The notes beneath the pieces are model-generated. The model was not told the origin of the DNA. It was given only the letters and a program-made list of their open reading frames with translations, and ran no database searches. From positions 62,001-126,000 of the forward strand of contig NZ_JACHTM010000003.1 in the NCBI RefSeq assembly GCF_015354055.1: a stretch of DNA of 64,000 bases, given 5' to 3'. Below are positions 46,505 through 48,797 of the stretch, piece after piece. This DNA is from Thermaurantiacus tibetensis (lineage in GTDB: Bacteria > Pseudomonadota > Alphaproteobacteria > Sphingomonadales > Sphingomonadaceae). The first letter of the stretch is position 1; each line of letters opens with the position of its first letter. The position numbers and the translations under genes were made by a program.

Positions 46505-46927
<423 letters not shown>

Positions 46928-47043
46928 CGCCTCGGTCCTTGCTGCAGGCATTGCGGAAACGCGCGGGCGCCCTAGCCGCCCATGGTGCGATGCACAAGTG
47001 CGGGCACCTTGACCCGGGAGGGCGCGTGGGCCAGATGGGTGCT

Positions 47044-47430
47044 GGGCCACATGTCCGGGCAGCCGCGCGGGCGCACGCCCTCGAGGAAAGTCCGGGCTCC
47101 ACGGATCGGCGGTGGCGGGTAACACCCGCCGGGGGCGACCCCAGGGAAAGTGCCACAGAAAGCGAACCGCCGCCCGGCCCTTGCGAAAGCGAGGGTGGCG
47201 GCAAGGGCGAACGGGTGCGGCAAGAGCGCACCGCGGCCCCGGCAACGGGGACGGCAGGGCAAACCCCACCGGGAGCAAGACCGAATAGGCGCGCACGGCC
47301 CCTCGGGGCCACGGCTCGATCCGGCCGGCGCGCGGGTTGGTCGCTGGAGGCGGCTGGCGACAGCCGCCCGAGAGGAATGGCTGCCCCCCGACGAGGGGAC
47401 AGAACCCGGCTTACAGGACATGTGGCCCCA
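47044..47430 (+). ncRNA. rnpB: RNase P RNA (bacterial class A)
   Basis: About 387 nt. Conserved regions occur in the right order: GAGGAAAGTCCGGGCTCCAC near 47082, the CACAGAAAGCGAACCGCC block near 47153, GGCAAGAGCGCACCGC near 47219, GGCAAACCCC near 47258 with AGCAAGACCGAATAG following, and the 3' ACAGAACCCGGCTTACA near 47399. The ends pair exactly: GGGCCACATGTCC at 47044-47056 with GGACATGTGGCCC at 47416-47428 form helix P1. The RNA is the catalytic part of RNase P for tRNA 5' processing. A hairpin array follows directly. Confidence 0.95.
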
Positions 47431-47440
47431 CCTTTCTTCT

Positions 47441-47707
47441 TGCGGCCCGGCAGGCAGCCGCCACACCAACCCTCCCTGCCGGGCCGAGGAGACGCGGCCC
47501 GAGAGGCAGCCGCCACACCCACCCTCCCTGCCGGGCCGAAAGCTACGCGGCCCGAGAGGCGCCGCCCCTCCTCCCTGCCGGGCCGAAAGGTACGCGGCCC
47601 GAGAGGCAGCCGCCCCTCCTCCCTGCCGGGCCAAGGAGACGCGGCCCGAGAGGCGCCGCCTCTCCTGCCTGCCGGGCCGGAGAGAGGCGCGGCCCGGCAC
47701 GGAGCGG
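47441..47707 (+). repeat. Tandem array of five GC-rich hairpin units downstream of rnpB
   Basis: Five units of 52, 53, 47, 47 and 48 nt start at 47441, 47493, 47546, 47593 and 47640, with a partial sixth at 47688. Each begins CGCGGCCCGAGAGGC (first unit GCGGCCCGGCAGGC) and ends CTGCCGGGCC, so each can fold into a long hairpin through GGCCCG/CGGGCC and flanking purine/pyrimidine complementarity. Units differ mainly in the loop and in the short A/G-rich linker. The array ends 41 nt before the transporter gene. There are no unique spacers, so it is not a CRISPR array. Confidence 0.9.
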
Positions 47708-47747
47708 GCCGTTCCCCCCGCCAGCCGGGCACGCTAGGCAGGTGCCG

Positions 47748-48797
47748 ATGACCCTCCCCCGGGCACGGCCCCTGCCCCAGGCCGCCGACCTCTTCGGCGA
47801 CATCGAGCCCACGCCGAAGGCGCGGCTTGCCGACCACCTGCCCGGTCTCCTCGTCGCGCTGCTCGCAGTGCTCGCCGCCGCTTTCCTCTCCGCAAGCTAT
47901 GGCCTTCCCCTGCCGCTCATGGCGCTCCTCGTGGGACTGGCCCTCAATTTCCTCTCGGGTGACCCCCGGCTGGTGCCCGGCCTTGCCGTTGCTGCCGGAC
48001 CGCTGCTGCGCCTTGGCATCGTGCTCCTTGGCACGCGCATCGCCGTTGCCGATCTTGCCGCCATCGGCGCGCCCGGTCTTGGCCTGCTCCTCGTCGTGAT
48101 CCTGCTTGCCCTGGGGTCCGGCGTGCTCCTTGCCCAGCTGCTGGGCTTCTCGCGCTGGTTCGGGCTTCTGGCCGGCGGGTCGGTCGCCATCTGCGGCGGC
48201 TCGGCGGCGCTCGCGCTTGCCGCAACGCTCGGCGACCGGCGCGTGCCCCGCGGAGAGCTCACCATGGTGCTCGTCGGCATCTCCGCCGTGGGGGCGGCCG
48301 CCATGGCACTCTACCCGGCGCTCGCGGCTGCACTCGGCCTGGGCGACGTGGCAGCGGGCTTCCTCATGGGCGCGGCCGTTCACGACGTGGCGCAGGCCGT
48401 GGGCGCGGGCGCTGCGGTGTCCGAAGGTGCTGCGCGCACGGCAACGCTCGTCAAGCTGACGCGAGTCGCGCTGCTCGCGCCGCTGCTGCTTCTCGTGGCG
48501 GCGCTTGCCGGCCATCCGCACGGGCGGCGGGTGGGCGTGCCTGCGTTCCTCCTGGGCTTCCTGGCCGTTGCCGCCGCCTCCGCCGGCGGACTCGTGCCCG
48601 AGGCCCTGGCGGCGCGGGCGGGGCAGGTCTCGGGCTGGCTTCTCGCGCTCGCCATCGCCGCCTCGGCCATGCGCTCGCCGATGCGGGACCTGCTGGCAGC
48701 GGGCCCCCGCCCCCTGCTGGTGGTGCTCGGGGCCTCGCTCGTCGCGCTTGCCGTGGCGCTCTCAGGCGCGCTGCTGCTGTTCGGGCGCGCGGCCTAG
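47748..48797 (+). CDS. YeiH-family putative sulfate exporter
   Basis: 349 residues from the ATG at 47748 (GTG 47742 is possible). Nine or ten membrane helices with family motifs [51 protein letters not shown] (near residue 140) and [29 protein letters not shown] (near 210). The YeiH/PSE family is annotated as putative sulfate exporters, with little direct proof. The gene is alone between the rnpB-linked repeats and the convergent aroC, whose stop it overlaps by 4 nt. Confidence 0.9.

Follow-up and report, generated by a model that had tools for sequence, protein, structure and literature searches.

A tandem array of fixed-loop hairpins directly behind the RNase P RNA gene of Thermaurantiacus tibetensis

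The window, the 64,000-nucleotide stretch of Thermaurantiacus tibetensis DNA analysed here, belongs to a genome of 2.75 Mb with 71% GC. Its + strand harbors rnpB (47047-47429), encoding a class A RNase P RNA (Rfam RF00010, RNaseP_bact_a, 244.7 bits). The gene runs into a linker, ACCTTTCTTCTT (47430-47441, +; ACC-TTTCTTCTTG from the rnpB end onward), that is T-rich by letter count. On the + strand of the window, just 5 of 63,991 positions hold a 10-mer with at least seven T, and the linker is proposed here as a candidate cleavage region for an RNase E-type endonuclease. The next gene downstream (47748-48797, +), delineated by its open reading frame and translation, is co-directional with rnpB and encodes a long hydrophobic product, presumably a membrane protein of the YeiH/UPF0324 type. 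It lies 320 nt from rnpB, with the array described below in between. A longer open reading frame (47337-48797) spanning this array was rejected as a GC-rich artefact, and the start of the gene was placed at 47748. On the other side, divergent from rnpB, lies a putative nucleoside diphosphate kinase gene, ndk (46505-46927, -), named from its sequence. In four other genomes of the genus, ndk is directly downstream of rnpB, co-directional and 60-110 nt away; three of them display the order aroC-rnpB-ndk. Compared with these four genomes, rnpB and a promoter-like box are flipped relative to ndk, and the membrane-protein gene is now on the 3' side (46505-47748). The possibility that rnpB had flipped through breaks in its P1 arms was rejected: the TTGACC promoter-like box was carried along with the gene (judged by eye), which rules out these arms as break points.

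The array (47442-47711) is composed of five units of 46-53 nt, with a period of 47, and a sixth half-unit. The original prediction had placed a five-unit array within a dozen bases of the rnpB 3' end; both points are confirmed, the gap being 12 nt. The units start with GCGGCCCG at positions 47442, 47494, 47547, 47594, 47641, and 47689, hence spacings of 52, 53, 47, 47, and 48 nt. Tandem Repeats Finder scores the array at 265/293 and the runner-up tandem in the 64 kb at 67. Unit 1 (47442-47493, +; model score 70 bits) is the canonical one, with a stem of 15 bp and one mismatch (47443-47457 paired with 47472-47486) capped by the loop CCGCCACACCAACC (47458-47471). Unit 2 (47494-47546, +; 60.8 bits) has the loop CCGCCACACCCACC, with one change, and a mutated left arm, the GAGAGG variant. 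Units 3 (47547-47593, +), 4 (47594-47640, +; 33.7 bits), and 5 (47641-47688, +; 27.9 bits) keep the outer GGCCCG/CGGGCC pairs; their loops are shortened and C/T-rich, those of units 3 and 4 being C-rich. The half-unit (47689-47711, +) forms a hairpin of 7-8 bp, GCGGCCCG-gcacggag-CGGGCCG, followed by TTCCCCCC.

When folded singly, units 1-3 form the long hairpin at -28, -19, and -18 kcal/mol, whereas units 4 and 5, with degenerate arms and loops, prefer other local pairings. The claim that each unit forms a GC-rich hairpin is thus correct in outline, but the canonical hairpin is unit 1, and units 3-5 show decay. Compared with dinucleotide shuffles, folding of 47425-47725 gives z = -4.4 for the + strand RNA and only -1.8 for the - strand. 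The units share 66-97% pairwise identity, and since they differ from each other the array is not an assembly artefact of duplicated identical copies. A derivation of the GAGAGG left arm from rnpB was judged to be a chance resemblance: 12 of 13 letters match the interior of the gene (47363-47375), the only match in the comparison of the array with rnpB, and none was found to the rnpB end.

When the genome is searched with the whole array, a single further strong match emerges; it lies directly behind tRNA-Leu(CAA) and has CAGCCGCCACACCAACCCT in common with the array, on a different stem. The exact 17-mer CAGCCGCCACACCAACC (the loop plus CAG of the stem) is found only at these two sites of the genome, its reversed control pattern having 0 occurrences there, and none of the others among some 293 genomes from the family contains it. 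The 14-mer GCAGCCGCCACACC is found at the same two sites (unit 1 in the case of rnpB) and in rnpB unit 2, which has one change relative to the 17-mer. Degraded relatives of the hairpin stand behind tRNA-Tyr and tRNA-Thr. At the tRNA-Thr locus the loop is lost yet a 13-bp hairpin is kept, and the stem is therefore retained independently; likewise, units 3-5 of the array, without the loop but with the outer stem, imply that the stem has a value of its own. Convincing copies in this genome are confined to rnpB and three tRNAs, the other 37 of its 40 tRNAs being without such a hairpin.

Within the genus, the hairpin behind tRNA-Leu is present as three tandem units in one relative (G002) and as two or more in another (G003). 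It is also found behind tRNA-Tyr in G002 and behind tRNA-Thr in both, always on the strand of the tRNA, while genus members G001 and G004 have none behind tRNA-Tyr, tRNA-Thr, or rnpB. A search for the unit in the genome and its relatives returns matches behind tRNA genes, but no array behind rnpB in any of the four relatives; the rnpB array has so far been seen only in the genome holding the window. It had also been considered that the unit might be a dispersed repeat unrelated to rnpB. Dispersed it is, but its convincing copies in this genome all lie directly behind stable RNA genes, on the same strand. Run over the five genomes, a covariance model built from ten units matches 11 sites at E < 1e-4. 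Each of them follows rnpB or a tRNA; ten are training sequences, and one, behind tRNA-Thr of G002, is new. The tRNA-Thr(TGT) gene has no encoded CCA in the three hairpin carriers (the genome of the window, G002, and G003), and CCA is encoded in G001 and G004. In G003, a 3' half of tRNA-Leu is followed by hairpin units and, ~6 kb further on, by another hairpin, which precedes the gene located immediately after tRNA-Leu in the genome of the window; it looks as if an integrated element sits in the tRNA-Leu/hairpin locus.

The motif common to these loci is a stem of free sequence capped by a fixed loop, CCGCCAC(A/G)CCAACC. In the ten-sequence alignment, 6 of the 15 pairs are changed on both sides, and the covariation score is 0.280, compared with 0.085 +/- 0.028 for shuffled sequences and at most 0.051 for slid partners. 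Genomes and phages together supplied 56 distinct stem arms, in which 321 of 392 cells are paired, against 214.5 +/- 8.5 (maximum 244) when partners are shuffled. A compensated stem, the loop, a T-rich linker, and a stable RNA on the same strand are all present for units 1 and 2, and units 3-5 retain only parts of this set. The conserved 14-nt loop, and its spread far beyond the genus, had been overlooked in the original prediction.

With one genome taken per species, the 19-mer CAGCCGCCACACCAACCCT occurs in at least 117 stretches, a lower bound as are all counts of the collection scans: exact patterns miss loop variants, and several of the genomes are metagenome bins. Nearly all are alphaproteobacterial among the matches listed, where the carriers include many Acetobacteraceae as well as Rhizobium, Stappia, Devosia, and Chelatococcus. 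Because the search pattern fixes the loop, its conservation outside the genus is shown by the number of exact hits, set against a reversed control pattern that is absent (0) from every genome tested individually, and not by the alignment. The distribution is patchy, with the loop in 4 of 240 genomes of a class-wide sample and 33 exact copies of it in Rubritepida flocculans.

The tRNAs that precede the hairpin in other alphaproteobacteria are those for Ser, Leu, Ala, Met, and Phe. ARAGORN places a tRNA 15-26 nt upstream, on the same strand, at five loci outside the genus (Ser, Phe, Met, Leu, and Leu), far above the chance expectation of about 0.1 estimated from 22 tRNAs in 868 kb. An independent sample of 297 genomes from another order, that of one carrier, contains 13 exact tips at 11 loci and 0 occurrences of the reversed control pattern. 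At six of these 11 loci, a tRNA on the same strand ends 14-15 nt upstream (Ser four times, Leu, and Ala), and at one tRNA-Leu locus at least four units are arranged in tandem with a period of 41. Overall, the hairpin lies 12-24 nt behind rnpB or tRNA genes, on their strand. Linkers at tRNA loci elsewhere consist of CCA and ~10 T-rich letters (CCA-TTTCTGTTTG, CCA-TATTTCTTTG), with 5-8 T in 10, and resemble the rnpB linker. The tandem units behind tRNA-Leu, three in G002 and four in the other order, fit the suggestion that a repeat family is expanding at rnpB, and the suggestion of RNA-stability elements fits the same evidence. At tRNA loci, a T-arm-like stretch (GGCTCCGAGTTCGAAC...CTCCGCCA) ending in CCA has also been observed 3' of the hairpin, resembling a duplicated tRNA 3' arm. 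Y-RNA-like (YrlA) sequences flank the hairpin in Rhizobium sp. G21, where the gene ahead of it encodes a product with a putative Ro60/TROVE-like C-terminal end.

The loop also occurs in two other settings. In Acetobacteraceae, the T-rich linker and the hairpin stand between two more palindromes (ATACC...GGTAT), forming an element of ~150 nt whose ends read TCATACC...GGTATCA. Of 124 copies, 121 are intergenic; the gene on their 3' side is mostly convergent (81 vs 29) and the upstream gene shows no bias, these counts being approximate as they rest on a home-made gene caller. In IMG/VR phage contigs, the same tip sits between late genes, on stems that are unrelated and for the most part well paired. 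Usually it lies a few tens of nt downstream of a gene and ahead of the following gene on that strand; in two contigs the hairpin directly follows a major head protein gene. T-richness is not seen in the phage linkers. Downstream of three phage copies stands CTAGGTTGGCTAGG(C/T)GGTG, which is partly complementary to the loop, and in two of the three cases the left arm then recurs, which may allow a bistable or pseudoknot form. A presence of the element in isolate phage and plasmid collections was rejected, a 30-nt query giving only weak matches, mostly inside genes.

Several known tandem or palindromic families were compared with the array. A CRISPR array was rejected, as the units are near-complete repeats with 7-9 nt between stems and no unique spacers. 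Type III toxin-antitoxin systems (ToxI type) contain several tandem structured RNA units. The array resembles them in having tandem units of similar length and differs in that single units occur behind tRNAs; a type III antitoxin was rejected, the directly downstream ORF (47748-48797) encoding a long hydrophobic membrane-type protein and not a ToxN-like RNase. The E. coli rnpB and tyrT (rtT) tandem repeats have much longer units (about 113 and 178 bp), which duplicate part of the end of their own gene. As in the present case, they directly follow RNase P RNA and a tRNA gene; the units here, however, are 47 nt long, hold no copy of the rnpB end, and carry a fixed loop that recurs across the class and in phages.

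Rfam 15 contains no family that reaches its gathering score over the hairpin; with a relaxed E-value, only sub-threshold sX11 (in a neighbouring region) and sX4 (at two tRNA-Ser loci) appear. The loop string has 0 matches in the literature searched, which does not cover most subscription journals. REP elements, divided into the GTAG and CGTC superfamilies, mostly have loops of 2-5 nt and family-specific fixed stems (PMC3733652). Like the present hairpins, they are short palindromes, mostly behind genes and likely transcribed, and their CGTC type is common in alphaproteobacteria (PMC3733652); in contrast to their short loop and fixed stem, a fixed 14-nt loop is combined here with 56 distinct stem arms. 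An assignment to REP was rejected on these grounds, together with the low copy number in the genome, the lack, in the units and the tRNA-associated copies, of any unpaired tag (GTAG or CGTC) next to the stem, and the absence of a RAYT transposase (Pfam Y1_Tnp) from the genome, G002, G003, and Rubritepida, such a transposase being found in some other carriers. Br-REP1, a three-palindrome element of Bradyrhizobium 3'-UTRs with a plain central palindrome, CCGGAATCTCGAGATTCCGG, resembles the Acetobacteraceae form in its three adjacent hairpins near gene ends, but has another sequence and, in the part of the source consulted, is not reported behind stable RNAs (PMC5082802). In Methanopyrus kandleri, a palindrome ~10 nt behind about half of the tRNA genes has been proposed as a 3' maturation signal; its distance is comparable, whereas the short palindrome, CGTTA(N)9TAACG, is reported as specific to this one archaeon and differs in sequence and loop (PMC5217627). 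These two, both with other sequences, are the nearest printed ideas found (PMC5217627, PMC5082802). The loop that the array shares with hairpins following tRNA genes of distant alphaproteobacteria and lying between phage genes points to an undescribed RNA trailer element, not a local oddity.

Hairpins with compensated stems and a fixed loop thus stand behind stable RNA genes at a limited distance, on the same strand, after a T-rich linker, and have expanded in tandem at several loci. The succession of stable RNA, U-rich linker, and GC hairpin is the usual layout in which a cut of the RNase E type is followed by exonucleolytic trimming, as for E. coli tRNA and M1 RNA. The array may be seen as a hairpin type widespread in alphaproteobacteria that has multiplied locally and is transcribed, as a 3' trailer, with the stable RNA ahead of it; this is our leading explanation, put forward tentatively and somewhat short of probable. 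An RNase E-type endonuclease would cut the U-rich linker, thereby starting 3' maturation, and until then the hairpin would hold off 3' exonucleases or slow or end transcription. The fixed loop suggests a binding partner and may be a docking site for a putative factor. Tandem duplication would stack extra units behind rnpB, the later ones keeping their stems and losing the loop. From this layout we infer a function in marking or protecting stable-RNA 3' ends. The hairpin is not needed for 3' maturation, because most tRNAs of the genome and rnpB of the four relatives have none, and for a pure exonuclease barrier a fixed loop would be unnecessary. Against a trailer stands the phage linker, and it is awkward for a sense-strand role that the orientation of the Acetobacteraceae repeat is tied to the convergent gene and not to the upstream one. 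A role of the sense-strand RNA is less than certain everywhere, mainly because this form resembles a dispersed repeat. A bolder version, possible but to be held more loosely, is that of a class-wide RNA tip read by a dedicated factor, a mark of 3' ends or stability on the precursors of RNase P RNA, tRNA, and Y RNA, which phages would have taken over for their late mRNAs and which would have been amplified in tandem behind rnpB.

The dispersed copies could also belong to mobile or self-spreading palindromic DNA, REP- or MITE-like, that lands preferentially at the 3' ends of stable RNAs and other genes, any RNA function being incidental. The 33 copies of Rubritepida, set in the ~150-nt three-hairpin element, the intergenic position of Acetobacteraceae copies, the patchy occurrence, the copies in phage contigs, and the tRNA-Thr genes that lack an encoded CCA where the element stands are in favour of this. 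A spreading family, however, should have stems alike, whereas here they are unrelated between loci and it is the loop that is fixed; the missing Y1 (RAYT) transposase and an orientation that never varies at tRNAs also count against it, and we regard such an origin as rather unlikely.

Termination has been invoked as well, and here the original prediction of stacked terminators finds no support in its classical sense: no T-run directly follows the GC stem of any unit on the + strand of the array, the half-unit having only TTCCCCCC, though ordinary U-tract terminators occur elsewhere in the genome. A factor-dependent terminator, using Rho via the C-rich loops or a GC hairpin without U-tract and stacked to shield the downstream gene, would suit loops that are C-rich, nearly G-free on the transcribed strand, and still C/T-rich when degenerate, as well as an array that parts rnpB from a co-directional gene and a hairpin that follows the phage head protein gene. 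But half of each unit is a G-rich stem, and Rho sites require no fixed 14-nt loop, which leaves this explanation improbable. Least probable by far is a switch in which the loop pairs either with a second RNA or, forming a pseudoknot, with the sequence downstream of it. Its attraction lies in CCGCCACACC, a perfect complement of GGTGTGGCGG in tRNA-Leu(CAA), and in the GGTTGG...GGCGGTGG that follows some phage copies. The loop, however, is unchanged whichever tRNA precedes it, and phage complementarity is only slightly above shuffles (5.17 vs 4.48). A pseudoknot with a downstream GGTTGG was rejected, as the 109 genome copies do not rise above shuffles in downstream complementarity (3.94 vs 3.97 shuffled).

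Tandem growth of hairpins behind rnpB and tRNA genes, an oddity of E. coli, has a counterpart in another bacterial class. A loop kept letter for letter on a freely changing stem, across several alphaproteobacterial orders and phages, usually means that something binds it, and there is a real chance that the array hairpin is a new RNA motif with a partner of its own. If the loop is bound, this would reveal a new partner in stable-RNA maturation or transcript protection, for which the unit would be a small bait.
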